A stretch of 64,000 bases of DNA from Panopea generosa (Eukaryota > Mollusca > Bivalvia > Adapedonta > Hiatellidae), in assembly GCA_029582155.1 (NCBI GenBank), contig CM055897.1:94005829-94069828 (forward strand), in the 5' to 3' direction. Under the pieces are notes generated by a model. It did not search any database, was not told the DNA's origin, and saw only the letters and a list, made by a program, of their open reading frames with translations. Position numbers and translations under genes: made by a program. Positions 6,001 through 55,200 of the stretch are shown here, one piece after another. Position 1 is the first letter of the stretch; each line of letters opens with the position of its first letter.

Positions 6001-6535
6001 AATATGGGGCTTCAAGTCCACCAGATGGTTTACTGTACCTGAAACACAAAACACTATAATACGGGGCTTCAAGTCCACCAGATGGTTTACTGTACCTGAA
6101 ACACAAAACACTATAATATGGGGCTTCAAGTCCACCAGATGGTTTACTGTCCCTGAAACACAAAACACTATAATATGGGGCCTCAAGTCCACCGGATGGT
6201 TTACTGTACCTGAAACACAAAACACTATAATATGGGGCCTCAAGTCCACCAGATGGTTTACTGTACCTGAAACACAAAACACTATAATATGGGGCTTCAA
6301 GTCCACCAGATGGTTTACTGTACCTGAAACACAAAACACTATAATATGGGGCTTCAAGTCCACCAGATGGTTTACTGTACCTGAAACACAAAACACTATA
6401 ATATGGGGCTTCAAGTCCACCAGATGGTTTACTGTCCCTGAAACACAAAACACTATAATATGGGGCCTCAAGTCCACCGGATGGTTTACTGTACCTGAAA
6501 CACAAAACACTATAATATGGGGCTTCAAGTCCACC
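1..6535. repeat. 4,048-bp higher-order duplication inside the 57-bp satellite
   Basis: The variant pattern of bases 1-2600 reappears at about 4049-6535. Markers are the 58-bp unit (741 and 4789), gggac in place of ggggc (247 and 4295) and a gctttaag variant (1961 and 5895). The offset is 4048 bp (71 units, one of 58 bp), dropping to 3934 after loss of two units in the second copy. This points to a recent block duplication by unequal exchange. Confidence 0.8.
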
Positions 6536-8950: not shown

Positions 8951-9226
8951 TTATTTATTTTACTTTGATTGTGAAACAAGTTATTTCCACTTATACAAAT
9001 CACGCTTGAAATCTTCTCGGGTAGAACCAGTACTAAGCACATACAGAAAGTGTCTTGGGTAGAACCAGTACTAAGCACATACAGAAAGTGTCTTGGGTAG
9101 AACCAGTACTAAGCACATACAGAAAGTGTCTTGCTCAATGACACCACACATAGCTGTGGCAGAGGATCGAACCTACAACCTTCTGATCATGAGGTTGATG
9201 CTCTACTACTGGACCACGCGCTCCAT
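8951..9226 (-). mobile_element. tRNA-derived SINE, family A, with 38-bp triplication
   Basis: On the minus strand: a tRNA-like head with A box (tggtccagtagtagagca) and B box (ggttcgatcc) at 9150-9220, a body with three tandem 38-bp units (agtactggttctaccca core, 9017-9133), and a tail acttgtttcacaatcaaagt...aaataag. Head and tail match the copies at 63.5 kb and 50.7 kb. Confidence 0.75.
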
Positions 9227-28200: not shown

Positions 28201-31200
28201 TTGTAATGTCATGCTGATGAATAGAGCCAAGTGTTTTAAAATTTATCCATAGGTGACAAAGTTACAGACCGGGCACGAAATCTCAATCAGACTGAAAGTG
28301 TCATCAAATAAAGTTAAATTGTGACCTTGACCTTTGAAGTGGGACTCTGGGTATTAGGTGCAATATGTCGTCATGTTATGTTGATTATTAATTTTGCAGC
28401 AAGTATTGATAAAATCCATCTATGCACGAAAAAGTTACTAGCCGGGAATGAAATCTCATACAGACCTATGAGGTACAAATATGGATCTTACAAGTGACAC
28501 GTTGTCATGTCATGCTGCTGACTTGAGCCAAGTGTTTTTTAAATTTATCCATAAGTGACAAAGTTACAGACCGGACACAGAATCTCAATCAGACTGAAAG
28601 TGTCATCAAACAAAGTTAAATTGTGACCTTGACCTTTGTCATGTTATGTTGATCATTTGTAGCAACTATTTATAAAATCCATCTATGCATGACAAAATTG
28701 CATGCTGGACACGAAATCTCACACAGACTCAAAGTGTTGTCAAACAAACTCAAATTGTGACCTTGACCTTTGAGATATGGTTGTGGGTCATACTTGGGAC
28801 ATGTTGTCATGTTATGTTGATCATTTGTAGCAAGTAATTATAAAATCCATCTATGCATGACAAAGTTACAGGCCTGACACGAAATCTCACAAAGACCAAA
28901 AGTGTTGTCAAACAAGCTCAAATTGTGACCTTGACCTTTGAGGTATGGGTGTGGGTCTTACTCGCGACACATACTCATGTTATGTTGATCATTTGTAACT
29001 AGTATCAACAAAATCCATCTTTGAATAACAAAGATACAGCCTGAAACAAAATACCAGACGGAAGAAAGGTAGGACGAACAGATCGACAGAAGAACGGACG
29101 CTGCGATTACTTTATGCCACCGCAAAAATTTTGGGAAAGGGGCATAAAAATACTATGTAAGTCCAATAAACACTTAATGTGCCAGAGAGCACACAACATA
29201 TAAGTTTACAGCCAGGCGAATGGATGAGCAATGGATACAAATCAATCAGAATAGGTTATCTGGAGCTTAGGCTATAATAAATTAATTGCTAGGTATCATC
29301 ACCGCCCACCCCTTAATTTTCATGCTGCACGGACCCTTTTTATTTTCATAAAAAAACAAACAATAAAAAAATAAACAATAAAAAAAAAACCATCTAAATT
29401 TTTAAAAATGAAAATAAAAAATAAAATCCTCCTGCCCTTCCGGTTTCTAAGAAAAATTTGGATGATAATCTAGCAAATAGTTTATAATGGCCTTAGTGAG
29501 TATACAAGGGAAGTAATTCTGTCTTTAAATAACCAGGAGTTATCCCCTTTTGTACTGCACCACTGTCTCATTATGCTTTACAAACATACAAAGTTTCAAC
29601 AAATTATCATATGTACTGTTCAAGTAATAAATCTGACTGGAATCAAATCTATTCCTATTGTGTTTAAAATGAAAAAATAAATCATTCAAAGGCTTATACT
29701 CCGCCATTTCTGATTTCAAAACTGATTTCATCTGAGCCTTCTTTATATATTCCTAACATTTTAACCAAGTTTGGTCTAAATCGGAAATGAACTGGTGTTA
29801 TGGTGTTGTCATGGCAATAATAAGTATTCTAATAAATTCAATGGTCATAACTCCATTGTTTCTAGTCCGATTGAGCCAATTCAACATTATATTCTAGATT
29901 TCATGACAATTAAAATAAAGCCATAGTTTGGTCAGGATCCCCTGTAATATGAAGGTGCCAGTCGTATATTACTGGAAATTAAATACCGGTACATGGATGA
30001 TGTATTGACAATGGATAAATAACCACGACATACTAGCTCTCTGGCTTTTCGCCAGTACAGCTGAAGTTTGTTGTATTTTTTATGCATTGTAAAATAATAG
30101 ACATTAAAATGCAATAAAAACGAAAGATAAAACAAAGACAAAATTTATTTAAACACAACAAACATAAACATGTACAAGTACATTCAATTTCTTAAACAAA
30201 TTTCCCTCTAGATTAAATTGTATGTAAATAACAATTCTGTATGAATTAAGATTGCTTTACAGAAATAACCAGACTCAGATGGGTTTGTCTGATGCATGAC
30301 TTAGTTTTCTGGATCTCTCTATATAAAGTATAGCAAGCATAAATAATCAGCTAAATAAAATATTAGCCAGACTTATATAATTTACAAAGCATTAGAAGTA
30401 ACCATCTAGTAGTGTAGATGGAAAATGTTCAGCATATTGTTGCTAGACATTCCAATATACAGTTTGTTGTCCTGGTCACTATACGCTATGGAAGAGGGAC
30501 TTTTCACTCCGTCTGTCTTATTTAGTAGGATCTGCAACTTCTCACCGCCTGCCGTTATCTGATGAACATTGTTAGAGTTGTGCCCGCACACGTAAACAGT
30601 TCCATCACGATCAACACATATTCCTGTGGCTTGCTTCAGGTCATCATCCTTATATGTGGCTATAATTTCTCCTTCCAGGGTCAGGTTGGTCAAGGAATGG
30701 TTGTTAAAGTCTGAAATATGCAGAATCGTATGGTCAGGACTGATAGCTATATAATGTGGATTAATGAATAGTCTCCCTCCACTGGCATCTGTAGATAAAA
30801 CTTTCAACACAGTACCATCCATTTTCATGATTTCAACTTTGGCTGGGTCACAGAATGTCACTGCAAGTTTGTCCATGTAACTCATTATTCCCCTGCATTT
30901 ACCATTGACCTTTACCTCATGACCTTTGGACAGAGTGTCTGATGCTGATAGAAACTGAATCACTTGTTTTCTGTTGAGAGTTACAGCAAGTTCCCCTGGT
31001 GCGGTCTCTGTAATGTCCCATGGCGATGAAGGCAAATGGAGCTTTGATGTGACCTTGTTTTGTTGTGTGTTGACAAGCATAGCACTATCTCCACTAATAA
31101 CAGCAATTTGTCCATCAGACATAATTCTTAATCCAGAAATTAATTCTTTAAACAATGAAATTTTGATATCTTGCAAATGTTTTGCTTTTAAGTCTCCAGC

Positions 31201-34200
31201 AATTTTCAATTGACCAAACAATTTCAGGTTTTCAAGTAAGTCTTTTATCTGTTCATCTGGCACAAACTGGTACTGAATTATCATGTTCTCCCTTGCCATC
31301 ATTGCTAAGTCATCTTCTAATGCATCCACATCCTTCTGTGATTTTTTCATTCTGATAAACAGATTTTGATACTGTCTAGATCTTTTAAATATCTCCATAT
31401 CTGACTTCAGTGTTTCAATATCCTTTATGGCCTTGTCACATTTACTGGAAATGGCACTCATCCTATCAATATCAGCATCCAGGGAGAGTTTGGCAACTTG
31501 TTCAATTTTGTTTTCAAGTTCATTAAACATAGTATTAATATCTTCTCTCAGTTCTTTTACAGTTTTTATTACTTCAGAGTAATATTTTTCTGATTCTGAG
31601 CGATTGACCTTTGTTTTTTTCTCATTAAAATCAAATTTGTCTTTGGTTTTGTTTAGTTTTGTGATGAAGTTCTTATATTCTTCACTCCCTTCAATTTCAT
31701 TAGCAATATTTGGGATATAGGTTACGTCACCGCAGCAAGTGTTCCCAGTGGCCAAGCAGGCACTGCATCCAAGCTGACTGTGTAATTTACAGAAATACTG
31801 AATAGATTTGCCTGCGTGTTGGGTGCATTTGTCTTTCATTAATGTACGATTCTTTTTCTTTGGCATGGCATATTTATCCATTAGCAAATGGTTCTTCATT
31901 GGTAATGGCAGGCAATGATGCTTGAAGCATGTCTCACATAAATAATGATTACAGTCCACACAAAATCCAGTGACAGGTAAATGATGTCCCTCTATGCTGC
32001 AAGGGTCACAGAACAGTTCAACCTCTTCCAGCGAAGCTCCAGTAACAGAATCACTTGGTCTGGTTGTGTTCCTTCCCGGCACTTCCATCGTCACTTTTTT
32101 ATATTTGCCTTACATATGAGGACAGGGATGCTACAGTTACATATACACTCATAATATGTTTGTTTTTTCCCGTCACTTCAATTTTCATATATGTGCATGT
32201 CACTATCGTAATTAGTTCTACTTTACGATCATCATTACAAATTTTAGTGTAATAGCTTTATATTACAATATTTCACAGTCCTCATCATTTAACATTGTAG
32301 CTACATATAGAATATTACTGATAACAAAATGGATGTTAGTCAGTGCACTACCTGATTACATATCAACCTTACTGCATGTTAAAGGGGGCTCATCTACTGA
32401 TACAGTATTTTATAGATTACATTAGCAATCACCACCTTTGCACCCTTCTTTGTAGATACTGACAGTGAGTGGCATTCTCCAGGGACTGTTCAATTACCCT
32501 ATACGTATATAAACATGACATTCTATAGGGACTGTACAATTACCCTATATGTATATAAACATGACATTCTATAGGGACTGTTCAATTACCCTATATGTAT
32601 AAAACATGACATTCTATAGGGACTGTTCAATTTACTATGTCTGTAATGCAGAACCACATGCTCCATATTGGTCAAATGATAAATCGAGGTTCTACTTATG
32701 TTCTATATAAATGGCTATACAAAATTAAACAGTTACTAATATATCGGAAAATGTTCACCTGTGTATTCACAGTTTTCTTATGTGCCGGTAGAAGATGAAC
32801 TTTGATTTAAAGCCGGGAGGTAGTGCAGTGTATCTTATGTTTACTGCTCACATTAACAGTTGTGGGTTTGCTATACATGATAGCCTCTCCAAACAGAAGG
32901 CCTAAGAGGGCCTGAATCGCTAGAGGATTTTATTTTTGTAAGTTACCCTCAAATTGAGCTTATTAGCCTCAAATGACCCCAAACTTAATCCCAGGGCTTC
33001 CACAAACATTCAGGATCCCATCATGCAATGCTACTTGTAAAAGGCCAACAAGGCCTTCAACTTTCAGAGAATATTTTTTATTTTAAAGTTCCTCTTCAAA
33101 TATGCTAATAATCTGTCCTTTTGTGCTTTCTTAGCAATCAAGCTAAATTAGTTTAAACTAATGTTTGACAATGAACTACACATACAATGACATGTCCAGC
33201 CAATATTTATGTTTGGCAATGAACTACACATACAATGACATGTCCAGCCAATATTTATGTTTGACAATGATCTACACATACAATGACATGTCCAGCCAAT
33301 ATTTATGTTTGACAATGAACTACACATACAATGACATGTCCAGCCAATATTTATGTTTGACAATGATCTACACATACAATGACATGTCCAGCCAATATTT
33401 ATGTTTGACAATGAACAACACATACAATGACATGTCCAGCCAATATTTATGTTTGACAATGAACAACACATACAATGACATGTCCAGCCAATATTTATGT
33501 TTGACAATGATCTACACATACAATGACATGTCCAGCCAATATTTATGTTTGACAATGAACAACACATACAATGACATGTCCAGCCAATATTTATGTTTGA
33601 CAATGAACAACACATACAATGACATGTCCAGCCAATATTTATGTTTGACAATGAACAACACATACAATGACATGTCCAGCCAATATTTATGTTTGACAAT
33701 GAACTACACATACAATGCCATGTCCAGCCAATATTTATGTTTGACAATGAACTACACATACAATGACATGTCCAGCCAATATTTATGTTTGACAATGAAC
33801 TACATAAACAATGACACGTCCAGCCAATATTTATGTTTGACAATGATCTACACATACAATGACACGTCCAGCCAATATATATGTTTGACAATGAACTACA
33901 CATACAATGACACGTCCAGCCAATATTTATGTTTGACAATGAACTACACATACAATGACATGTCCAGCAAATATTTATGTTTGACAATGAACTACACATA
34001 CAATGACACGTCCAGCCAATATTTATGTTTGACAATGAACTACACATACAATGACATGTCCAGCCAATATATATGTTCCAATTTCATGCTACTTTTCAAG
34101 ATTCAATAAATCATTTGAAAAACTAAATAACAGTGGTGAATCTTGTGTAGCTATCTTCGTCAAAAATGTATAAAATATATTTTACTTTTTCATTTTTTAA

Positions 34201-37200
34201 ATATTTTCATTTTCAAAATTAGCGAAAGGTCAATATAGTTTTACAATAACTGTAAGTAATCTCATAAATTTATTTGTTTCAAGCTAACTATCTTAATAAA
34301 AAGATGCAAACTTATTTTGCTATGTGAACATTAGTAAAAATCAACATTGTCATGAGTACCTTTAACATAACAGAAGATAACCAAACATGGTTCAAGTGAA
34401 TGATATAATTCGTAACTTGTAAACTGTATATTTTTATCTCAAATTTAGTGGTTATCTTATACCTTAATGATTAAATAAATATAGAATTTAAGAGTATACC
34501 AACACATTGTGGCTATATGATACCCAGCTGAAAGAAAATTCCAGACTCATTTTCCAAGTTCAAAATAAGAATAGCCAGATAACAAACTAAGACAAATATC
34601 AAATCAGATTATAAATAAATAAAAATGAAGGATGAGCCCAGAACCTTCATATCCGTGGAACTACCAAGATTTAAGCTCAACTGCAATGCAGGTTCATAGC
34701 TTTTGTGAAATGTTGTTAGGCCTGTGTCTTGGGTAGAGCCCATACTGGATGCTGTTTTTGAAAGGCATTTCGGAGCCTGAATTATAAGAATCTTACATCG
34801 GTTTGAAATTTGGACAGAAAATTCTATCCCAAGGGATAACTTACAGTGATATCTGCCGAATTAGTGCAAAAATAGTTATCTGGGAGGGCAGAGCTTTTTT
34901 TTACCGAAAAGAAATAGCCATGATTTTTTTTCTTTCTTGAAAACCAAACATACTGAATATTATATTTGAAGTTAATTCATCATCATATTTTACCACGACC
35001 ATTTTTAAGAACTCAAATTCTATCATTTATGTTATATTTATTTTGTGTCATGCCATAGATGGTTCTAACATCACCACAAAAGAGTGAGGGTGTAGGAGGC
35101 AAAATAAGTAACGAGTAAAAATATGTGGAAATCCTTGTCCGGTATGCAAGAATGAGTAGTCAAAGCTTATCCACTGCACTACTCCTGCTTGTACAATTGT
35201 CTAAAAGGTTCTCCTTTCCTTAATAGCTCAAACTGAATGTTTGCAAGAGACAGATGGTTTCAACATAAAAGTCCTGAACTGTAAGTGGAGTAGTGGGTAT
35301 GGCGGGTATGCCCTGAACTGTAAGTGGAGCAGTGGGTATGGGAAGAATATGCCCTGAACTGTTGTGGAGTAGTGGGTATGGTGGGGATATGCCCTGAGCT
35401 GTAAGTGGAGTAGTCGGTATGGCAGAAATATGCCCTGAACTGTAAGTGGAGTAGTGGGTATGGCAGAAATATGCCCTGAACTGTAAGTGGAGTAGTGGGT
35501 ATGGCAGAAATATGCCCTGAACTGTAAGTGGAGTAGTGGGTATGGCAGAAATATGCCCTGAACTATAAGTGGAGTAAAGTGTGCTTAAACGTGAAAAAAG
35601 CAATTTATAAGTTAGTGGGTTGAGAATTATTGCAGGATGAGAATTTAATAGAATAATAAAAGTAATACGTACAGCTGAAATGAGAGCAGAGAGATCGGCA
35701 GCAGAAAAACTGTCGTACGCTCCCAGGAAGATTGGGAAACCGATTGCGATGTAGCTAAATATTCCGCCCAAATAGTCAAATAGGTTCACAGAAACTGAAA
35801 TATTAAAAATCAAGTTACACACAAAACAAAAATGTGTTTTAAAAAAATGCTACACATGAATATAATTATCGATTTTAAAATATTTATTACACATGTTGAA
35901 GTTTGTATATATTTAGGACATGACTCTAAATTTTTGTTTGAATAATTAGTGTCAGACGATCAGTAAACTTAATCCTGTTTTCCTGGGATCAGATTAATCA
36001 ATACTCGATCATACCCATCTCAACAAGTAATTGGAAACTTTCCCAATGAAACAGTTGTGAGAGAGGAATGACAATGAGATTCAATTTCATATACCAATAA
36101 TAACAGAAACTGTGACAGGGCAAGGATTCAAACCAACGACCCCTGGATGGATATTCAGACATGCAACCAACTGAGCTAACTTGGCCCCCTGGCTATCTAT
36201 TCTATAAAGCACAAATATATTTGTTATAATTATGTGAAGTTCAAATATGTTGGCCCTCTATCTGTTGTTATATCAAAACTATGTTGTGTTGTCCTGAGCA
36301 CAAACAACCTGCAAGCATGTTTTTAGGATTTGTATCAATATCATCTGATATGAAGCACAGCTTGTTTTGCTTTGATAGATAATTGTAAATAAAATAAAAA
36401 GTAGGTGCCTCTGGAACTTTATACGTATCTTAACATATAAGCAATCAGTAGTGTCATTTTTTAACCCATGTGACCTTGGTCTTTCTGTTATCTATAATAA
36501 AACTAAGACTGGTTCTCATATGACTGTCAACACTGAGGGCAGTTCAGTAGTTATAACTCTACAGTCACTGGTTAATAAATGTTTAACTGTACTGAAAAAA
36601 AACAACCATTTTACCTTACAATATTTGATAAAGATAAAAGAAATGTTTGTTGATTTGTACCAACCAATACCCACTACTCCACTTACAGTTCAGGGCATAC
36701 CTGCCATACCCACTACTCCACTTACAGTTTAGGGCATATTTCCCCCATACCCACTACTCCACTTACAGTTCAGGGCATACCTGCCATACCCACTACTCCA
36801 CTTACAGTTTAGGGCATATTCCCCCATACCCACTACTCCACTTACAGTTCAGGGCATATTCCCCAAATACCCACTACTACACTTACAGTTCAGGGCATAC
36901 CTGCCATACCCACTACTACACTAACAGTTTAGGGCATATTCCCCCCATACCCACTACACCACTTCCAGTTCAGGGCATACCCGCCATACCCACTACTCCA
37001 CTTACAGTTTAGGGCATATTCCCCCTATACCCACTACTCCACTTACAGTTCAGGGCATACCCGCCATACCCACTACTCCACTTACAGTTCAGGGCATACC
37101 TGCCATACCCACTACTACACTTACAGTTTAGGGCATATTCCCCCTATACCCACTACTCCACTTACAGTTCAGGGCATACCTGCCATACCCACTACTCCAC

Positions 37201-40200
37201 TTACAGTTCAGGGCATACCTGCCATACCCACTACTACACTTACAGTTTAGGGCATATTCCCCCTATACCCACTACTCCACTTACAGTTCAGGGCATACCC
37301 GCCATACCCACTACTCCACTTACAGTTCAGGGCATACCTGCCATACCCACTACTACACTTACAGTTTAGGGCATATTCCCCCTATACCCACTTCTCCACT
37401 TACAGTTCAGGGCATACCTGCCATACCCACTACTCCACTTACAGTTCAGGGCATACCCGCCATACCCACTACTACACTTACAGTTCAGGGCATACCTGCC
37501 ATACCCACTACTACACTTACAGTTTAGGGCATATTCCCCCCATACCCACTACACCACTTACAGTTTAGGGCATATTCCAACACTACTCCACTTCCAGTTC
37601 AGGGCATACCCGCCATACCCACTACTCCACTTAGAGTTAAGGGCATATTCCCCCCATACTCACTACTCCACTTACAGTTTAGGGCATATTCCCCAAATAC
37701 CCACTACTACACTTACAGTTCAGGGCATACCTGCCATACCCACTACTACACTTACAGTTTAGGGCATATTCCCCCCATACCCACTACACCACTTACAGTT
37801 TAGGGCATATTCCAACACTACTCACTATTCCACTTACAGTTCAGGGCATACCTGCCATACCCACTACTCCACTTACAGTTCAGGGCATATTCCCCCCATA
37901 CCCACTACTCCACTTACAGTTCAGAGCATATTCCCCCCATACCCACTACTCCACTTACAGTTCAGGGCATACCTGCCATACCCACTACTCCACTTACAGT
38001 TTAGAGCATATTCCCCCCATACCCACTACTCCAATACTACACCACTTCCAGTTCAGGGCATACCCGCCATACCCACTACTCCACTGACAGTTTAGGGCAT
38101 ATTCCCCCAATACCCACTACTCCAATTACAGTTCAGGGCATACCTGCCATACCCGATACTCCACTTACAGTTTAGGGCATATTCCCTCTATACCCACTAC
38201 AACACTTCCAGTTCAGGGCATACCCGCCATACCCAATACACCACTTACAGTTTAGGGCATATTGCAACACTACTCACTACTCCACTTACAGTTCAGGGCA
38301 TACCCGCCATACCCACTACTCCACTTACAGTTTAGGGCATATTCCCCCCATACCCACTACTCCAATTACAGTTCAGGGCATACCCACCATACCAACTATT
38401 CCACTTACAGTTCAGGGCATAACCTCCATACCACCTACTCCACTTACAGTTCAGGGCATAACCGCCATACCCACTTCTCCACTTACAGTTCAGGGCATAA
38501 CCGCCATACCCACTTCTCAACTTACAGTTCAGGGCATAACCGCCATACCCAATATTCCACCTAAAGTTCAGGGCATACCTGCTATACCCACTATTCCACT
38601 TACAGTTCAGGGGACAACCACCATACCCACTATTCCACTTACAATCAAGGGCATACCTGCCATACCCATTATTCCAATTACAGTTTAGGGCATACCTGCC
38701 ATACCCACTTTTCCATTTACAGTTCAGGGCAATCCTGCCATACCCACTACTCCACTTACAGTTCAGGGCATACCCCCAACATACACACTACTCCTCTTAC
38801 AGTTCAGGACATACCCCCACCATACCCACTACTCCACTTACAGCTCAGGGCATATTCCCCCCATACCCACTACTCCATTAACAGTTCAGGGCATACCCCC
38901 CCCCCCCCCCCCCCCCCATACCCACTACTCCATTTACAGTTCAGGGCATATTCCTCTCATACCCACTACTCCACTTACAGTTCAGGGCATATTCCCCCCC
39001 ATACCCACTACTCCACTTACAGTTCAGGGCATATTCCCCATACCCACTACTCCACTTACAGTTCAGGGCATACCCCCATCATACCCACTACTCCACTTAC
39101 ATTCAGGGCATACCCCAATCATACCCACTACTCAGCTCACAGTTCAGGGCATATTCACGCCATACCCACTACTCCACTTACAGTTCAGGGCATAACCGCC
39201 ATACCAACTACTCCACTTACAGTTCAGGGCATACCCCAACCATACACACTACTCCACTTACAGTTCAGGGCATAACCCCATCATACTCACTACTCCACTT
39301 ACAGTTCAGGGCATACCCCAATCATACCCACTACTCAGCTTACAGTTCAGGGCATATTCCCGCCATACCCACTACTCCACTTACAGTTCAGGGCATAACC
39401 GCCATACCCACTACTCCACTTACAGTTCAGGGCATACTCACCATACCCACTAATCCACTTACAGTTCAGGGCATACCCCATCATACCCACTACTCCACTT
39501 TCAGTTCAGGGCATACCCCAATCATACCCACTACTCAGCTAACAGTTCAGGGCATACCCCATCATACCCACTACTCCACTTACAGTTCAGGGCATACCCT
39601 ATCATACCCACTACTCCACTAACAGTTCAGGGCATACCCCAATCATACCCACTACTCAGCTTACAGTTCAGGGCATACCCCATCATACCCACTACTCCAC
39701 TTACAGTTCAGGGCATACCCTATCATACCCACTACTCCACTTTCAGTTCAGGGTATAGCCCAATCATACCCACTACTCAGCTTACAGTTCAGGGCATATT
39801 CCTGCCGTACCCACTACTCCACTTACAGTTCAGGGCATACTCTCCATACCCACTACTCCACTTACAGTTCATGGCATACCCCCACCATACCCACTACTCC
39901 ATTTACAGTTCAGGGCATATTCCCGCCTTACCCACTACTCCACTTACAGTTCAGGGCATATTCCCCATATAGCCACTACTCCACTTACAGTTTAGGGCAT
40001 ACCCCCACCATACCCACTACTCCACTTACAGTTTTGGGCATACTCCCACCATACCCACTACTCCACTAACAGTTTAGGGCATACCCCCACAATACCCACT
40101 ACTCCACTAACAGTTTAGGGCATACTCCCACCATACCCACTACTCCACTTACAGTTAAGGGCATATTCCCCATATACTCACTACTCCACTTACAGTTAAG

Positions 40201-43200
40201 GGCATACTTCCACCATATCCACTACTCCACTTATAGTTTAGGGCATATTCCCCCATACCCACTACTCCACTTTCAGTTCAGGCATATTCACCATATACTC
40301 ACTACTCCACTTACAGTTTAGGGCATACTCCCATCATACCCACTACTCCACTTACAGTTTAGGGCATACCCCCACCATACTCACTATTCCACTTACAGTT
40401 CAGGCATATTCCCCATACATTAACTACTCCACTTACAGTTTAGGGCATACCCCCACAATACCCACTACTCCACTTACAGTTAAAGGCATATTCCCCCCAT
40501 ACCCACTACTCAACTAACTATTAAGGGCATACCCCATCACACCCACTATTCCACTTACAGTTAAGGGCATACCCCCACAATACTCATTACTCCAATAACA
40601 GCTTAGGGCATACCCCCACCATACCCACTACTCCACTTACAGCTAAAATCATACCCCCACCATACTCACTACTCCACTAACAGTTCAGGGTATAATTTCC
40701 CCATATACCCACCACTCCACTTACAGTTCAGGGAATACCCCACCATACCTACTACTCCACTTACAGTTCAGGGCATACCACTCACCATACTCACTTCTCC
40801 ACTGACAGTTCAGGGCATATTCCCCATATACCCACTACTCCACTTACAGTTTAGGACATACCCCCACCATATTCACTACTCCACTTACAGTTTAGGGCAT
40901 ATTCCCCCTATACTCACTACTCCACTTACAGTTCAGGGCACACCCCCACCATACCCACTACTCCACTTACAGTTCAGGGCATACCCCCACAATACCCACT
41001 ACTCCACTTACAGCTAAAATCATACCCCCACCATACTCACTTCTCCACTGACAGTTCAGGGCATATTCCCCATATACCCACTACTCCACTTACAGTTTAG
41101 GGCATAACCCCACCATATTCACTACTCCACTTACAGTTTAGGGCATATTCCCCTTTATACTCACTACTCCACTTACAGTTTAGGGCATACCCCCACCATA
41201 GCCACTACTCCACTTACAGTTCAGGGCATACCCCCACAATACCCACTACTCCACTTACAGCTAAAATCATACCCCACCATACTCACTACTCCACTTACAG
41301 TTAAGGGCATATTTCCCATATACCCACTACTCCACTTACAGTTCAGGGCATACTCCAACCATACCCACTACTCCACTCACAGTTTAGGGCATATTCCCCC
41401 TATACTCACTATTCCACTTACAGTTCAGGGCATACCCCCCCATCATACCCACTACTCCACTTACAGTTCGGGCATACCTCCACCATACTCACTACTTCAC
41501 TTACAGTTCAGGGCATACCCCACCATACCCACTACTCCACTTACAGTTCAGGGCATACCCCACCATATCCACTTCTCCACTTACCGTTAAGGGCATGCCC
41601 CCACCATACCCACTACTCCACTTACAATTCAGGGCATACCCATCCATACCCATTACTCCACTTACAGTTTAGAGCATAACCCCGACATACCCACTACTCC
41701 ACTTATAGTTTAGGGCATACCCCCACAATACCAACTTCTCCACTTACAGTTAAGGGCATATTCCCCCCCCCCCCCCCATACCCACTTCTCAACTTACAGT
41801 TAAAGGCATACCCCACCATACTTACTACTCCACTTACAGTTCAGGGCATAACCCCACCATACTCACTACTCCACTTACAGTTAAGGTCATACCCTCACCA
41901 TACTTACTACTCCACTTACAGTTTAGGGCATGCCTCCACCATACTCACTACTCCACTTAGAGTTTAGGGCATATCCCCACCATACTCACTACTTAACTTA
42001 CAGTTAAGGGCATACCCCCACCATACTCACTACTCCACTTACAGTTTAGGGCATAACCTCACCATAATCACTACTCCACTGACAGTTTAGGGCTTATCCC
42101 CATCATAATCACTACTCAACTTACAGTTTAGGGCATACCCCCACCATACTCACTACTCAACTTACAGTTTAGGGCACATTCCCCCCATACCCACTACTCC
42201 ACTTACAGTTTAGGGCATACCCCCACCATACTCACTACTCAACTTACAGTTTAGGGCACATTCCCCCCATACCCACTACTCCAATTACAGTTTAGGGCAT
42301 AGCCCCACCATACTCACTACTCCACTTACAGTTCAGGGCATATCCTCCACCATACTCACTTCACTACTCCACTTACAGTTTAGGGCATATCCCCAGCATA
42401 CTCACTACTCCACTTACAGTTCAGGGCATATCCCCCCTATACTCACTACTCCACTTACAGTTCAGGGCATATCCCCACCATAACCATTACTCCACGTACA
42501 GTTTAGGGCATATTCCCCCTATATTCACTACTCCACTTACAGTTCAGGGCATATCCCCCCTATACTCACTACTCCACTTACAGTTCAGGGCATATTCCCC
42601 CCATACCCACTACTCCACTTACAGTTCAGGGCATATCCCCACCATAACCATTACTCCACTTACAGTTTAGGGCATATTCCCCCTATACTCACTACTCCAC
42701 TTACAGTTTAGGGTTTTTCCCCACCAAACTCACTTCACTACTCCACTTACAGTTTAAGGCATATCTTCACCATACTCACTTCTCCACTTACAGTTTAGGG
42801 CATATACCTACCATACTCACTACTTCACTTACAGTTTAGGACATACCCCTACCATACTCTCTACTCCACTTACAGTTCAGGGCATATTCCCTCTATACCC
42901 ACTACTCCACTTACAGTTTAGGGCATATCCCCACCATACCCTGCACTCCACTTACAGTTCAGACATATTCCCACCAAACCCACCACTCCACTTACAGTTC
43001 AGGGCACATTCCCCCTATACCCACTACTCCACTTACAGTTCAGGGCATACCCATCCATACCCACTACTCCACTTACAGTTCAGAGCATATTCCCACCAAA
43101 CTGGCTACTCCACTTACAGTTCAGAGCATATTCCCACCAAACCCACTACTCCACTTACAGTTCAGGGCATATTCCCCATATACCCACTACTCCACTTACA

Positions 43201-46200
43201 GTTCAGGGCATACCCATCGATAGCCATTACTCCACTAACAGTTTAGGGCAAACCCTTACCATACTCACTACACCACTTACAGTTTGGGGCATATTCCCTC
43301 TATACCCATTACTCCACTTACAGTTCAGGGCATATCCCCACCATACCCACTACTCCACTTACAGTTAAGGACATATTCCCCCTAAACCCACTACTCCACT
43401 TACAGTTTAGGGTATACCCCCACCATAGCCACTACTCCACTTACAGTTCAGGGCATATTCCCCCTACACCCACAACTCCACTTACAGTTCAGGGCACATT
43501 CCCCCTATACCCACTACTCCACTTACAGTTTAGGGCATATTCCCACCATACCCACTACTCCACTTATAGTTTAGAGCATATCCCCACCATACTCACTACT
43601 CCACTTACAGTTTAGGGCATATCCCCCCTATACTCACTACTCCACTTACAGTTAAGGGCATATCCCCAACATACCCATTACTCCACTTACAGTTCAGGGC
43701 ATATTCCCCCTATACTCACTACTCCACTTACAGTTTAGGGTTTTTCCCCACCATACTCACTTCACTACTCCACTTACAGTTTAGGGCATACCCCTACCAT
43801 ACTCACTACTCCACTTACAGTTTAGGGCATATCTCCGCCATACCCATTACTCCACTTACAGTTCAGTGCATATTCCCCCTATACTCATTACTCCACTTAC
43901 AGTTTAGGGTTTTTCCCCCACCATACTCACTTCACTACTCCACTTACAGTTAAGGGCATACCCCTACCATACTCACTACTCCACTTACAGTTCAGGGCAT
44001 ATTCCCTCTATACCCACTACTCCACTTACAGTTTTGGGCATATTCTTACCATACCCATTACTCCACTTACAGTTCAGGGCATATTCCTCCTATACTCACT
44101 ACTCCACTTACAGTTTAGGGCATATCTCTGCCATACCCATTACTCCACTTACAGTTCAGTGCATATTCCCCCTATACTCATTACTCTACTTACAGTTTAG
44201 GGTTTTTCCCCACCATACTCACTTCAGTACTCCACTAACAGTTTAGGGCATATCCCCACCATACTCACTTCTCCACTGACAGTTTAGGGCATACCCCCAC
44301 CATACTCACTACTCCACTTACAGTTTAGGGTGAACCCCTACCATACTCACTACTCCACTTACAGTTTAGGGCATATCCCCACCATTCCCATTACTCAACT
44401 TACAGTTCAAGGCATATTCCCCCTAAACTTACTACTCCACTTACAGTTTAGGGTTTTTCCCCACCATACTCACTTCACTACTCCACTTACAGTTTAGGGC
44501 ATATCCCCACCATACTCACTTCTCCACTTACAGTTCGGGGCATATCCCCACCACTCCACTTACAGTTCAGGGCATATTCCCGCCAAACCCACTACTCCAC
44601 TTACAATTCAGGGCATATTCCCACCAAACCCACCACTCGACTTACAGTTCAGGGCACATTCCCCCTATACCCACTACTCCACTTACAGTTTAGGGCATAC
44701 TCCCACCATACCCACTACTCTACTTACAGTTTAGGGCAAACCCCTACCATACTCACTACTCCACTGACAGTTCAGGGCATATTCCCTCTATACCCACTAC
44801 TCCACTTACAGTTCAGGGCATATTCCCGCCACACCCACTTCTCCACTTACAATTCAGGGCATATTCCCGCCACACCCACTACTCCACTTACAATTCAGGG
44901 CATATTCCCGCCACACCCACTACTCCACTTACAGTTTAGGGCATATTCCCGCAAAACCCACTACTCCACTTACAGTTCAGGGCATATTCCCGCCAAACCC
45001 ACTACTCCACTTACAATTCAGGGCATATTCCCGCCAAACCCACTACTCCACTTACAATTCAGGGCATATTCCCGCCAAACCCACTACTCCACTTACAATT
45101 CAGGGCATATTCCCGCCAAACCCACTACTCCACTTACAATTCAGGGCATATTCCTGCCACACCCACTACTCCACTTACAATTCAGGGCATATTCCCGCCA
45201 CACCCACTACTCCACTTACAATTCAGGGCATATTCCCGCCACACCCACTACTCCACTTACAATTCAGGGCATATTCCCGCCACACCCACTACTCCACTTA
45301 CAATTCAGGGCATATTCCCGCCACACCCACTACTCCACTTACAATTCAGGGCATATTCCCGCCAAACCCACTACTCCACTTACAATTCAGGGCATATTCA
45401 CGCTTGATGAGTTGATGCTGAGTACTGATCAGGGTTGTTAAATGATTGTTGGATTTCTCTTTTTCTATTGCACCAGATCTGTAAAATGCTGCTGACTCAC
45501 TATTGGTCCTTATCTGCATGTGCTTAAACCTGGAATAATTGAAGTGACCAATGGCTATTGTTCTTTTTTTTGTTAATAATTTTACACGCAAACGTTGAAC
45601 ACACTAATTCAAACATGTAGAAAATGGTATCAATTACTAAATATGCATGTTGTTTCCAAAATGTTAATACGACTTCATTAAAATGTATGTCTTCTTTCAT
45701 GACTGTACACATATTATTTTGTAGCATCTGCAGACACCTGATATGATGAAACTAGAGAGTCATTAAATACTGTGAAATCATTAATTTTTGTGGGGAACTA
45801 ACTTTCGTTGACTTTGTGGGAAGCCTCATCAAAGAAATTAAATCCCAACAAAATTGTGTTACATTCGTACTGAATAGCATTTACCTGTAACAAAAACATA
45901 GACCTACCTTTCTTGACTAGATCTATATGTTATCTGATATTTTCTATTCAATGTGTTAATTTTGTTAATATTGAAAATTTATTTATTGCACTGTAACTGT
46001 AACTGAATGAATATACATCTATTTCATGACATTAAATATGCCCGTCAATATCAGAGGTTGTGTGTAGACTTGTGTGTATTACGTTTTCATCACTGTGGAA
46101 AGGGTTAAAAATAGACCGTTTTCTGAAAGAATATGGCAACTACAAAAGTAGATGACACATTTTTCATAATTGTGTAGACAACAAACACTACTCATTCCAG

Positions 46201-49200
46201 TAGACAACAAACACTACTCATTCCAGTAGACAACATACACTACTTATTCCGGTAGAGAATAAACATTTCTGATTCCAGTAAACAACAAATACTACTAATT
46301 CCAGTAGACAACAAATACTACATATTCCAGTAGACAACAAACAGGTCTGATTCTAGTAGACAACAAATGCTTCTAATTCCAGTAGACAACAAATGCTATT
46401 AATTCCAGTAGACAACAAACAGGTCAGAATCCAGTAGACAACAAATACTTGTAATTCCAGTAGACATTAAATACTACTGATTCCAGTAGACAACAAACGT
46501 TTCTGATTCCAGTAGACAAGACATACTACTGATTCCAGTAGACAGCATATACCTCTAATTCCAGTAGACAAAACATACTACTGATTCCAGTAGACAACAA
46601 ATGTTACTGATTCCAGTAGATAACAAATACTACTGTTTGCAGTCGACAACAAAGGTTACTGATTCCAGAAGACAACATACACTACTAATTCCAATAGACA
46701 ACACACACTATTGATTCTAGCAGACAACAAATACTACTGATTCCATAAGACAACAAATACTATTTATTCCTGTAGACAGCAAACACTACTGATTCTAGAA
46801 GAAAACAAATACAACTGATTTCAGCAGACAATATTTCCAGTAGACAACAAACACTATTAATTCAAGTAGACAACAAAACCTACTGAATCCAGTAGACAAC
46901 AAGAACTATCACTGAAGGTGATGAAAACCCCCTAAACACCACAATGTCACAGTACATAAAATATAATGTAATATTTTATGATGAAATGGGGAAAGAGAGC
47001 TTTATGCAGTAGGTCTTTCTTCTGTTTTAAGTAAGAAAGCAATTGATTTTAAAGTTTTGGAGGAAAGTGGACCTGGACAAACAAAGGTTTACCAAGGTAT
47101 ATTTTCAATGTAGATGCCAATGCAAGCAAGAGTAAGAAAGACAATATTAAACTTACAGTAATTTCTTTTATTATAATATATTGCACAACATATAAAAATT
47201 AAACCTATTGACCAGAAACATGGACCATGCACAAGAAGACATGGTACTTATCACTTATGTGAAGAATCATGAAATTCTGACCAGTTTTTTTTAGATTTAA
47301 ATCCACAAGATTTTACTATTTCAAGACCCTGTGACCTTGACCTTGGATGTGAAACATAGACCATGCACAACTAGGCATGGTACTTATCACTTGTGTGAAG
47401 TATCATTTAATTCTGACCAGGGATTATTGAGATTTAGCATCCACAAGATTTTACTATTTCCAGCCCCTGTGACCTTGACCTTTGACGTATTGACTAGAGT
47501 CATGGACCATGCACAACTACGCATGGTACTTATCACTTACCTGAAGCATCATTAAATTCTGACCAGGGTTTATTGAGATTTAGCATCCACAAGATTCCCT
47601 CTACAATTTACTATCTCCAGCCCGTGTGACCTTGACCTTTGACTTTTTGACCCGAAACATGGACCATGCACAACTAAGCATGGTACTTATCACTTCTGTG
47701 AAGTTTCATTAAATTCCTAGCAGGGGTTACTGAGATTTAGCGTCCACAAGATTCCGTCTACAGACAGACAGACAGACGGACAAGCTGAATCCAGTATACC
47801 CCACCCCCCGTTCGGGGGTATAATAAATTCTACTGATTCTTGTAGACAACAAAACTACTGATTCCAGAAGACAGCAAATACTACTGATTCCAGAAGACAG
47901 CAAATACTACTGATTCCAACAGACAACAAATACTACTGATTCTAGTAGACAACAAATACTACTGATTTCAGCAGACAATATTTCAAGTAGACAACAAATA
48001 CTACTGATTCCAGTAGCAAACAAATACTAATTATTCTGGTAGACAACAAATACTAGTGATTCCAGTAGACAACAAACACTGTTGATTCCAGTAGACAACA
48101 CATACTACTTATTCCAGTAGACAACAAATACTACTGATTCCAGTAGACAACAAATACTATTGATTTTGGTAGACACCAAATACTACTGTTCCAGTAAACA
48201 ACAAACACTATTGATTGCAGTCTACAACAAATTCTACTGATTCTGGTAGACAACAAATATTATTGATTCCTGTAGACAGCAAACACAACTGATTCTAGTA
48301 GACAACAAATACAACTGATTACAGCAGACAATATTTCCAGTAGACAACAAACACTATTGATTCTGGTAGACAACAAACACTACTGATTCCAGTAGACAAC
48401 AAATATTACTAATTCCTGTAGACAACAAACACTACTGATTCCAGTAGACAACAAACACTACTTATTCCAGTAGACAACAAAAACTACTGATTCCAATAGA
48501 CAACAAATGTTACTGATTTCAGTAGACAGCAAAAACTACTGATTCCAGTAGACAACAAACACTACTGATTCCAGTAGACAACAAATACTACTGATTCCTG
48601 TAGACAACAAACACTATTGATTCCAGTAGACAATAAAAACTACTGATTCCAATAGACAACAAATGTTACTGATTCCTACTGATTTTAGCAGACACTATTT
48701 CCAGTAGGCAACAAATACTATTGAAGCATATTTTCTGAGTATACAGCAACTAATAATATTGATTCCAGTAACTGTAATCGTTGATTTGAGATGAGATTAG
48801 GAAAGTTTTTTAACACAAAATAACTTTTAAAATGAAAGAAAATTGTGTTACCGATACAGGCCACTAACAATAAATGAAAACACATTCAAACCTATAGCTG
48901 ACCTGAAGTTTCCCTCCATTTTCTCTCTAAGGAAAACAAATCTTACAACCGGAGACATGAGCAGTTTGTTACTGATACAGGCCACTAACAATTAGTCATA
49001 ACACATTCAAACCTATAGCTCACCTGAAGTTTCCCTCCATTTTCTCTCTAAGGAAAACATATCTTACAACAGGAGACATGAGCAGTTTGTTACTGATACA
49101 GGCCACTAACAATTAGTCATAACACATTCAAACCTATAGCTCACCTGAAGTTTCCCTCCATTTTCTCTCTAAGGAAAACAAATCTTACAACCGGAGACAT

Positions 49201-52200
49201 GAGCAGTTTGTTAATAACTGTGGCGATGATGAAGAAGATCAAGACACCTACAGGTCCTACATAACCCGAGCTAAAAGGTAAAATAAATTTATTAATAAAT
49301 ACAGGTCACTCAAATAAGCATAGTTGTTGATTTTTTTATCAAAAAATAACATGCAAATATCAGTAAAGCAATGACAGCTGCAACATTTTTTGTCGACTAT
49401 TGTGCAAAATATAATAAGCATTATATGATTATTTTAGACAGTTTTGTACAATATGGAAATATATTGTACAAGTTGGTATTGTGGAGAAAACAATATTTGA
49501 CAAAGACGTCGTAGGTGTAGAGTCCAATGTGATTTTCACAAGTACAATATATTCCAATATCATACAAAAGACTGAAAAATTATCTTTTTATTCTATATAT
49601 CAATCTAATTTATCAAAAATATAAAGAAAAATCAAGATCCTTTAAACATGTATTTGAAAATAGGCACTAAGTAATAAACAGTGGGTCAATAAGCTGAGAG
49701 TTCAAAGCGGCAGATGAAGGACGTTGCAGTGATAACTATTTAATTATCTCATCGTCTCAACCTTCATGCGGAACATTTTGAAGGTTGTTTGTTTATATTG
49801 TATGCAATACCTTTTATTTTCAATCAACATCTTGAATTTTTAACTGTACAATATGAAATAGTTTATTGGATTCAATCAACTTCTACATATTGTACGATCA
49901 TAATTATGGTAACATCTGGAATAGGGGATTGGCTCAGTACTTATAGGTACAGAATAAATAGAGTGGCATCTTTAATATAAACCCTCCCCTCACCCATTCT
50001 TATGGAAAATTACTTAACCATCAGAAAGCTAGTCTTTAATCAAAATAAATACACAAAGATATCAAGTCTGGTTTAAACATTTTAAAGATGAATAAATTTG
50101 GACTTTTGGCCTGCCCTACATGCAAAAGAGTTTTTTCAACACATTGTGCAGTCACCATCATAGCACTGTCTTGTGACTTTCAATGCTTTGTTCACAGCCT
50201 TAATGCGCCATTGACGGTTGTGTATTTCTTTTGCATTTTTTCATATACTTAATAAATAGCTTAAATTTTGTAAACATTTCTCAGACACAAATTAATGCCC
50301 CTTTGGCTTGGAGCATTTATTTGGGAGTATACGGTATGGTACCAATAGGACTGAAATAAATATGAATTGCAAATCTGTAGCTGGGAGACCATGCCAAAGA
50401 AAGTCACCTGAAATGTTTACAGATATATTAATAGACTGACAATGGACAAAGGTCAAGGTGAGCTTATCTTCTGATGAAAGTGAAGTCCAAAACAAGGTAA
50501 GAAAATAAATGACAATAAAGTATGTCACATTACCTTTGCTGGGCCTTGTAGACATAATACACAATGGTAAATGGTGATATGATGAGAGGTGCCACAATCT
50601 GGCTGGCTGTATCACAAATCTTATTTATGTCCTGAGTTATTCTTTGATCTCTGGTAATGGAAAGTATTAAGATTATCAATGCATCATAAATATATGTATG
50701 TGGGGCAATAGTGTAGTAGATAGTGCTGCAGGTTTGATCTCCAGCTTCACCTGATGCCTCTCAAATAACAACACTCAGTACTGGTTCTACCCAGGAAGCT
50801 TACAACACTCAGTACTGGTTCTACCCAGGAAGCTGACACCACTCAGTACTGGTTCTACCCAGGAAGCCGACAACACTCAGTACTGGTTCTACCCAGGAAG
50901 CTGACAACACTCGGTACTGGTTCTACACAGGAAGCGGACAACACTCAGTACTGGTTCTACACAGGAAGCGGACAACACTCAGTACTGGTTCTACCCAGGA
51001 AGCTGACAACACTCAGTACTGGTTCTACCCAGGAAACTGACAACACTCAGTACTTGTTCTACCCAGGAAGCTGACAACACTCTGTACTGTATCTACCCAG
51101 GAAGCTGACAACACTCAGTACTGGTTCTACCCAGGAAGCTGACAACACTCAGTACTGGTTCTACACAGGAAGCAGACAACACTCTGTACTGGTTCTACCC
51201 AGGAAGCAGACAACACTCTGTACTGGTTCTACCCAGGAAGCTGACAACACTCTGTACTTGTTCTACCCAGGAAGCTGACAACACTCTGTACTGGTTCTAC
51301 CCAGGAAGCTGACAACACTCAGTACTGGTTCTACACAGGAAGCAGACAACACTCTGTACTGGTTCTACCCAGGAAGCAGACAACACTCTGTACTGGTTCT
51401 ACCCAGGAAGCAGACAACACTCTGTACTGGTTCTACCCAGGAAGCTGACAACACTCAGTACTTGTTCTACCCAGGAAGCTGACAACACTCTGTATTGGTT
51501 CTACCCAGGAAGCTTACAACACTCAGAACTTGTTCTACCCAGGAAGCTGACAACACTCTGTACTGGTTCTACCCAGGAAGCTGACAACACTCAGTACTGG
51601 TTCTACCCAGGAAGCTGACAACACTCAGTACTGGTTCTACCCAGGAAGCTGACAACACTCTGTACTGGTTCTACCCAGGAAGCTGACAACACTCAGTACT
51701 TGTTCTACCCAGGAAGCTGACAACACTCTGTACTGGTTCTACCCAGGAAGCTGACAACACTCTGTACTGGTTCTTCCCAGGAGGCTGACAACACTCAGTA
51801 CTGGTTCTACCCAGGAAGCTGACAACACTCAGCATGGTTCTACCCAGAAAGCAGACAACACTCTGTACTGGTTCTACCCAGGAAGCTGACAACACTCAGT
51901 ACTGGTTTTACCCAGGAAGCTGACAAACCCCTGTACTGGTCCTACCCAGGAAGCTAACAACACTCTGTACTGGTTCTACCCAGGAAGCTGACAGCATTCA
52001 GTACTGGTTCTGCCCAGGAAGCAGACAACACTCAGTACTGGTCCTACCCAGGAAGCAGACAACACTCTGTACTGGTTCTACCCAGGAAGCTGACAACACT
52101 CAGTACTGGTTCTACCCAGAAAGCTGACAACACTCAGTACTGGTTCTACCCAGGAAGCTGACAACACTCAGTACTGGTTCTACACAGGAAGCTGACAATA

Positions 52201-55200
52201 CTCAGTGCTGGTTCTACTCAGGAAGCTGACAACACTCAGTACTGGTTCTACCCAGGAAGCTGACAACACTCAGTACTGGTTCCTCCCAGGAAGCTGACAA
52301 CACTCAGTACTGGTTCTACACAGGAAGCTGACAACACTCAGTGCTGGTTCTACTCAGGAAGCTGACAACACTCAGTACTGGTTCTACACAGGAAGCTGAC
52401 AACACTCAGTACTGGTTCTACCCAGGAAGCCGACAACACTCAGTACTGGTTCTACCCAGGAAGCTGACAACACTCGGTACTGGTTCTACACAGGAAGCGG
52501 ACAACACTCAGTACTGGTTCTACACAGGAAGCGGACAACACTCAGTACTGGTTCTACCCAGGAAGCTGACAACACTCAGTACTGGTTCTACCCAGGAAGC
52601 TGACAACACTCAGTACTTGTTCTACCCAGGAAGCCGACAACACTCTGTACTGGTTCTACCCAGGAAGCTGACAACACTCAGTACTGGTTCTACCCAGGAA
52701 GCAGACAACACTCAGTACTGGTTCTACACAGGAAGCAGACAACACTCTGTACTGGTTCTACCCAGGAAGCAGACAACACTCTGTACTGGTTCTACCCAGG
52801 AAGCTGACAACACTCTGTACTTGTTCTACCCAGGAAGCTGACAACACTCTGTACTGGTTCTACCCAGGAAGCTGACAACACTCAGTACTGGTTCTACACA
52901 GGAAGCAGACAACACTCTGTACTGGTTCTACCCAGGAAGCAGACAACACTCTGTACTGGTTCTACCCAGGAAGCAGACAACACTATGTACTGGTTCTACC
53001 CAGGAAGCTGACAACACTCAGTACTTGTTCTACCCAGGAAGCTGACAACACTCTGTATTGGTTCTACCCAGGAAGCTTACAACACTCAGTACTTGTTCTA
53101 CCCAGGAAGCTGACAACACTCTGTACTGGTTCTACCCAGGAAGCTGACAACACTCAGTACTGGTTCTACCCAGGAAGCTGACAACACTCAGTACTGGTTC
53201 TACCCAGGAAGCAGACAACACTCTGTACTGGTTCTACCCAGGAAGCTGACAACACTCAGTACTTGTTCTACCCAGGAAGCTGACAACACTCTGTACTGGT
53301 TCTACCCAGGAAGCTGACAACACTCTGTACTGGTTCTTCCCAGGAGGCTGACAACACTCAGTACTGGTTCTACCCAGGAAGCTGACAACACTCAGTACTG
53401 GTTCTACCCAGAAAGCAGACAACACTCTGTACTGGTTCTACCCAGGAAGCTGACAACACTCAGTACTGGTTCTACCCAGGAAGCTGACAAACCCCTGTAC
53501 TGGTCCTACCCAGGAAGCTAACAACACTCTGTACTGGTTCTACCCAGGAAGCTGACAGCATTCAGTACTGGTTCTGCCCAAGAAGCAGACAACACTCAGT
53601 ACTGGTTCTACCCAGGAAGCAGACAACACTCTGTACTGGTTCTACCCAGGAAGCTGACAACACTCAGTACTGGTTCTACCCAGAAAGCTGACAACACTCA
53701 GTACTGGTTCTACCCAGGAAGCTGACAACACTCTGTATTGGTTCTACCCAGGAAGCTTACAACACTCAGTACTTGTTCTACCCAGGAAGCTGACAACACT
53801 CTGTACTGGTTCTACCCAGGAAGCTGACAACACTCAGTACTGGTTCTACCCAGGAAGCTGACAACACTCAGTACTGGTTCTACCCAGGAAGCAGACAACA
53901 CTCTGTACTGGTTCTACCCAGGAAGCTGACAACACTCAGTACTTGTTCTACCCAGGAAGCTGACAACACTCTGTACTGGTTCTACCCAGGAAGCTGACAA
54001 CACTCTGTACTGGTTCTTCCCAGGAGGCTGACAACACTCAGTACTGGTTCTACCCAGGAAGCTGACAACACTCAGTACTGGTTCTACCCAGAAAGCAGAC
54101 AACACTCTGTACTGGTTCTACCCAGGAAGCTGACAACACTCAGTACTGGTTCTACCCAGGAAGCTGACAAACCCCTGTACTGGTCCTACCCAGGAAGCTA
54201 ACAACACTCTGTACTGGTTCTACCCAGGAAGCTGACAGCATTCAGTACTGGTTCTGCCCAAGAAGCAGACAACACTCAGTACTGGTTCTACCCAGGAAGC
54301 AGACAACACTCTGTACTGGTTCTACCCAGGAAGCTGACAACACTCAGTACTGGTTCTACCCAGAAAGCTGACAACACTCAGTACTGGTTCTACCCAGGAA
54401 GCTGACAACACTCAGTACTGGTTCTACACAGGAAGCTGACAATACTCAGTGCTGGTTCTACTCAGGAAGCTGACAACACTCAGTGCTGGTTCTACCCAGG
54501 AAGCTGACAACACTCAGTACTGGTTCTACCCAGGAAGCTGACAACACTCAGTACTGGTTCTACACAGGAAGCTGACAACACTCAGTGCTGGTTCTAATCA
54601 GGAAGCTGACAACACTCAGTACTGGTTCTACACAGGAAGCGGACAACACTCAGTACTGGTTCTACCCAGGAAGCTGACAACACTCAGTACTGGTTCTACT
54701 CAGGAAGCTGACAACACTCAACTGGCTCTACTCAGGAAGCAGACAACACCCAGTACTGGTTCTACCCAGGAAGCAGACAACACCCAGTACGGGTTCTACC
54801 CAGGAAGCAGATATAACAGTGGTTCATATGTTAGTTTTAAGCTTTCTTCACAATCAAGCTAAAATAATTTAGTTTAAACTAAATATATGTAATTAACTAT
54901 TAAATATCAAGATAAATGGATCAATAGATTCTTTAACAGATCATAACAAATATGTCCAATGACAGCTTTTGCCTACATTTAGCCATGATGTAGAAATAAG
55001 CAACACAAGAGACCAACAAGGGCTAGTATCATGGGCCAGTATCTCATTACTAATCAGATTATTATTTTTTTTTTTTTTTGTATTTTGTAATGAGGTTATT
55101 TTATGATTTCTAACACATAACAGGTCATATAGATACATATCCAGTTTTATCGGTGGAGGAAGACCTCGGAATAAGAGTAGAACCACCGTCATTCTGCAAG

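Follow-up and report, generated by a model that had tools for sequence, protein, structure and literature searches.

A very large mirage-type minisatellite probably derived from a splice junction of a bivalve ABCD4 gene

Introduction

The minisatellite of the human IFI6 gene (6-16) reportedly supplies several splice donors, an observation ascribed to Turri in 1995. The closest described systems are found in amphioxus, where minisatellite-like tandem duplications of exon-intron boundaries, known as mirages, are located at the 5' or 3' ends of introns and contain splice signals in many of their units (PMC3087553, PMC3902484). According to the parts of these reports available to us, mirages occur in the genes for Adh3, the globins BflGb6 and BflGb9, and TnC, the repeats of PGBD5 have been likened to them, and regular splicing is undisturbed while their lengths vary (PMC3087553, PMC3902484). 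The available parts of further sources describe three related situations: downstream repeat units of human IFI6 are used as donors and give rise to alternative mRNAs (PMC4526556), boundary minisatellite expansions in human duplicated genes have formed new introns and contain, on average, 4 units, each of 30 bp (PMC2812944), and satellite-like tandem arrays belonging to oyster Helentrons are dispersed in the genome, some of them near genes (PMC7492417). Within the literature searched, the coverage of which was incomplete, we found no report of junction-spanning arrays in molluscs. Here, we describe such arrays in a bivalve ABCD4 gene.

Results

The ABCD4 gene and its surroundings

The minus strand of the DNA stretch analysed here (64,000 nucleotides from Panopea generosa, hereafter the window) carries 10 exons of a bivalve ABCD4 gene, which encodes the lysosomal cobalamin exporter. 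The peptide of exon E matches ABCD4 structures (E about 1e-6), and the exon shows 75% identity to Ruditapes ABCD4 by tblastn. When the exons were joined and searched together, the best match was the clam Ruditapes philippinarum, followed by other bivalves; the identity of ~69% is only approximate because the 391-residue query lacked exon G2, which was found later, and included residues of a putative exon J. All ten exons have AG acceptors and GT donors and together form 407 stop-free codons. In the direction of transcription, they are exons A (62633-62506), B (56111-55972), C (50650-50534), D (49270-49145), E (45529-45384), F (35794-35673), G (25988-25897), G2 (24676-24575), H (22109-21970), and I (16221-16111). 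Exon E was delimited by its AG/GT borders, by a codon phase that fits exons D and F, and by tblastn, and exon F by codon phase, its acceptor completing the split codon of exon E; exon I contains Walker A, and its phase fixes the reading of a 57-bp repeat unit discussed below.

Tandem arrays make up 57% of the window according to our own listing. An intronless B-box/NHL-like open frame lies on the ABCD4 strand within intron F-G (30409-32109), for which 11 relatives were found, the closest being from Mercenaria mercenaria (30% identity). The segment 36105-36186 on the minus strand looks tRNA-like by eye and is perhaps a SINE, and ARAGORN called no tRNA there. Rfam gave no matches at the gathering threshold, and ARAGORN gave no tRNAs.

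A 41-bp array continuous with the exon E donor

At the end of exon E and the start of the following intron (GAATATGCCCTGAATT|GTAAGTGG), a 41-bp segment across the junction is tandemly repeated. The resulting array (36667-45399, minus strand; TRF and unit alignment) fills most of the 9589-bp intron E-F. The initial annotation had proposed about 220 copies of the exon E 5' splice site; the large array was confirmed, with a count of 214 units by cyclic alignment, the exonic copy included, and a TRF copy number of 213.9. It had also been correctly recognised that each unit joins the last 16 nt of exon E to the intron start, which contributes 25 nt, and that the array is contiguous with the junction, through whose last exon base (45384) it runs unbroken. 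Most units are 41 nt long (145/214), others being 40 nt (22), 39 nt (27), or of further lengths. The description of the copies as 5' splice sites applies to the majority rather than to all, since GT is retained in 202/214 units and GTAAGT in 170/214. The AACT form, AACTGTAAGT, is present in 149/214 units, and either AACT or AATT directly precedes GTAAGT in 163/214.

The variants are unevenly distributed along the array. As the earlier reading had it, the copies nearest the exon share its AATT: the motif is found in all ten exon-nearest units (exonic one included) and in 4 other units. Compared with the exonic unit, these ten show 0-2 differences over 41 positions, vs 0-12 for the following 30. 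Likeness between neighbours is 0.930 among the 20 exon-nearest units, compared with 0.852 for neighbours overall and 0.832 for random pairs; the exon-side edge is therefore the freshest or most homogenised part of the array. The array is G-rich on the gene's strand (G 0.37, C 0.10), a composition that may promote instability. Given that long tandem arrays are hard to assemble, the repeat number might be suspected to be an assembly artefact. However, the position-specific differences that underlie these likeness values, together with local two- and three-unit patterns, are not what copying by software would give, which makes such an artefact extremely unlikely; some over- or under-count of units from assembly is possible. 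An exact scan of viral contigs with 25 bases of the 41-bp unit gave no matches.

A short inverted array of the same unit (7.5 copies, 35273-35576, plus strand; TRF and unit alignment) begins 97 nt past the exon F donor, and its 304 nt are ~90% complementary to the main array. Exon F sits between the two. Such an inverted pair could fold around exon F and favour its skipping or the formation of circular RNA. Simple outward growth from exon E does not explain the inverted copy beyond exon F, which shows that the 41-bp unit can occur elsewhere in the gene and, in this respect, would suit an origin of the arrays as central repeats of Helentron-type mobile elements, which are common in bivalves; satellite-like central repeats are described for oyster elements in the available part of the source (PMC7492417). 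Repeats of this type would be bordered by element modules bearing subterminal inverted repeats and a 3' palindrome. We nevertheless regard this origin as almost certainly wrong because the repeated 41 bp are the splice junction of ABCD4 itself and no gap separates the array from the exon.

Arrays at other junctions of the gene

The left end of the window (1-8499, minus strand) is occupied by a 57-bp array of ~149 units, identified by TRF and interpreted from codon phase together with a protein match. Read on the strand of the gene, it contains TTTCAG|GTACAGTAAACCATCTGG, corresponding to an acceptor TTTCAG and the first 47 nt of the putative exon J. TTTCAG is present in 148/149 units, the remaining one being cut by the window end. 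In the phase demanded by exon I, the unit reads GTVNHLVDLKPHIIVF, vs GTIDYLVDLKPSVILF in Ruditapes at the point where exon I ends (10/16 residues); this match scores 63, whereas the maximum of 100 shuffles is 48. The protein match and the phase required by exon I suggest that the array consists of ~149 copies of the exon J acceptor and exon start, with exon J itself lying beyond the window. It is predicted to start with GTACAGTAAACC, followed by an LPQKPYFTDG-like stretch, to the left of the window. The 57-nt length keeps the frame, and in-frame stops occur in 0/146 units of exactly 57 nt; two 58-nt units break the frame, and a single frame followed through the whole array hits 49 stops.

Two smaller arrays, both on the minus strand and supported by TRF and sequence match, also include junctions: three copies of 121 bp that take in the exon D donor with the 3' part of that exon (48846-49213), and two copies of 65 bp that take in 9 nt of exon B with its acceptor (56103-56233). 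The array at exon E is thus not isolated, being accompanied by those at exons D and B within the window and probably by one at exon J just outside it. Comparing exons A, C, F, G, G2, and I, each extended by 60-nt flanks, with the window gave no further match (E up to 0.01). For exon H and its 60-nt flanks, a second match was obtained only from 17 nt past the donor, to a 42-bp array.

This 42-bp array (16566-21953, 5.4 kb) starts 17 nt past the exon H donor and does not include the donor. The protein-match shuffle test covered 15 repeat units. The 42-bp array was rejected as a derivative of the exon H junction, the match beginning 17-21 nt past the exon end and 8/100 shuffles reaching the protein score, and so was a 34-bp array before exon C (50768-54808, intron B-C), given that the exon C flank has no second match and 50/100 shuffles reached the score. 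An exact scan of viral contigs with 21 bases of the 34-bp unit gave no matches. The sequence GGGTAGAACCAGTACT is common to the 34-bp array and a 38-bp array in intron I-J (9015-9133), in the same orientation, and CAGTAAACCATC on the gene's strand is common to a 20-bp unit (58648-61090) and the 57-bp unit, perhaps by chance or perhaps reflecting a link. A 35-bp unit in 3 copies (56229-56337) lies directly next to the 65-bp duplication at exon B; no source for it emerged from the protein matches tested.

The exon as the probable source of the satellite

The shared sequence at exon E could have arisen in either direction. At its end, exon E codes for EYALN and has one base left over; exon F completes the codon split in this way, in the correct phase. 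In a gap-free alignment with 54 orthologs (the first 54 of 120 listed proteins, from 892 found), L is present in 54/54, N in 49/54, YALN in 31/54, and EYALN in 17/54. Judging from this conservation, the exon end is old coding sequence, which argues that the satellite was copied from the exon and is a product of it. The protein-match shuffle test is uninformative for the 41-bp unit because just five of its residues are exonic (the best match lies elsewhere in ABCD4 and was reached by 4/100 shuffles), and the exon E case rests on position and identity instead.

Under the opposite order of events, an unrelated array would have been present in the intron and the exon end would have been recruited from it through a donor shift. 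The inverted array beyond exon F, by which the unit is seen to sit away from exon E, and the many dispersed satellite-like arrays of bivalve genomes, as described in the available part of the source (PMC7492417), would be compatible with this order, but it is hard to reconcile with the gap-free alignment of the exon end, with its nearly invariant L and N, with the fit of the split codon to exon F, and with the observation that the 57-bp array, too, matches conserved coding sequence. We consider it very unlikely and retain the exon as the source.

Placement of arrays relative to junctions

For a junction-spanning test, 24 non-redundant arrays were picked from the TRF table. Units of 3/24 arrays span junctions in the window, while 0.23-0.28 would be expected for unit-sized seeds (P 0.002-0.003). 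When whole arrays were placed anywhere in the window, 4-5 junctions were covered by chance vs 3 observed; this null was judged unsuitable because long arrays then cover exons, although the result as it stands still opposes enrichment. Placement within each array's own intron was applied to 22 of the 24 arrays (the 57-bp array, the exon of which lies beyond the window, and a dinucleotide run were left out), with junction-spanning arrays cut at the intron edge. By this procedure, 4/22 arrays lie within 20 bp of a junction vs 0.36 expected (P 5e-5), 5/22 within 50 bp vs 0.86, and 8/22 within 120 bp vs 2.06, a number that 0/20000 placements reached. The wider distance bands are fairer because, after edge cutting, randomly placed arrays can hardly attain distance 0. 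Array edges are located at junctions more frequently than expected under random placement, in tests that were all post hoc, confined to one gene, and made with array overlap ignored.

Donor choice at exon E

Codon phase and orthologs place the predicted exon E donor at 45384. With an approximate matrix, the median score is 7.09 for the donors of the array vs 7.30 for the real one, and 16/214, the real one included, reach 7.30; most donors in the array have scores similar to that of the real one, so that site sequence does not single out the first donor. An in-frame TGA begins 36 nt past the exon E end, inside the first added unit, and any later donor therefore adds an in-frame stop. The initial annotation had expected every other donor choice to shift the frame; this is true of 131/214 positions, whereas at 83/214 (including the real one) the extension is divisible by 3, and it is the stop that every later donor has in common. 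In the available part of its source, SRSF1 is described as favouring the intron-proximal of competing donors (PMC5585400), a preference that would here pick the last donor, i.e., the wrong one.

It is conceivable that the array is useful, its donors serving as U1 snRNP decoys, as a shield against premature polyadenylation of a long intron, or as alternative donors that tune ABCD4 output in the manner of human IFI6. U1 snRNP protects introns from premature polyadenylation. The retention of GTAAGT in 170/214 units might be taken in favour of a useful array, as might the use of two downstream repeat units as donors that is described for IFI6 (PMC4526556). However, neighbouring 6-mers (starts 13-26) are kept in 153-179 units, and GTAAGT is no better kept than several of them, giving no sign of donor selection, which was rejected as a candidate. 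Moreover, every later donor adds a stop, and U1 would find no binding sites in an array of acceptors such as that at exon J. A useful array thus appears improbable.

Discussion

The arrays are very probably best explained as a mirage-type minisatellite of very large size, in which the exon E junction was copied in tandem into the intron, with the same having happened at exons D, B, and J. A short stretch of DNA spanning the exon E donor may have been duplicated in tandem, and slippage or unequal exchange may then have multiplied the copies into the intron, as suggested by the unit variants and by homogenisation of the units close to the exon. The copy attached to the exon would have stayed whole because it encodes conserved protein, while duplication and intronic growth were tolerated. 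A like process would account for the arrays seen in the sequence at exons D (donor) and B (acceptor) and, judging from protein match and phase, for that at the exon J acceptor. The exon-attached donor is most likely still used, with exon definition and the non-repeated portion of exon E directing the splicing. Transcripts from later donors would carry the premature stop, be truncated, and probably be degraded.

A broader view is that splice junctions act as satellite seeds in this bivalve lineage, so that an intron would grow as the splice site at one or the other of its ends is amplified, genes would harbour hundreds of decoy donors and acceptors, the true site would be found by exon context and not by site sequence, and the arrays and the inverted copy around exon F would affect ABCD4 output. 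We put this forward as speculation that is rather unlikely to hold as a whole. At the locus itself, the splicing machinery apparently must pick one right site among many near-identical ones, and the ~160 sites of nearly equal strength within 9 kb provide a natural test of donor choice. The locus also bears on how introns lengthen and on whether junctions are hot spots of tandem duplication. It further suggests that minisatellites of the splice-junction kind, as known in amphioxus, can grow to the size of a satellite and form most of an intron in another phylum.

The comparisons that follow are with the known systems as described in the available parts of the sources cited above. Human IFI6 likewise has a minisatellite with several splice donors, but its downstream units are used, whereas later donors in ABCD4 would add a stop. 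Human boundary repeats share minisatellite expansion at exon-intron boundaries and differ in that they created new introns, whereas an existing, old intron has grown here. Oyster Helentron repeats are likewise tandem arrays in bivalve genomes, but their units belong to mobile elements and not to a gene's own splice junction. The amphioxus mirages resemble the ABCD4 arrays in that the repeat unit spans a boundary of the host gene (here at exons E, D, and B, and presumably J) and in that splice signals are present in the units (here GT in 202/214, GTAAGT in 170/214, and TTTCAG in 148/149). They differ in size, the globin case having 6 and 3 units compared with 214 and ~149 here, plus two small arrays, and in that the present case, from a bivalve, involves several junctions within one gene. 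Length instability between haplotypes or cells and normal splicing are reports from amphioxus, while the ABCD4 arrays are known from the sequence of one haplotype. The ABCD4 case is of the mirage kind, and its novelty lies in its scale of hundreds of units, in the involvement of several junctions of one gene, and in its occurrence in a mollusc.
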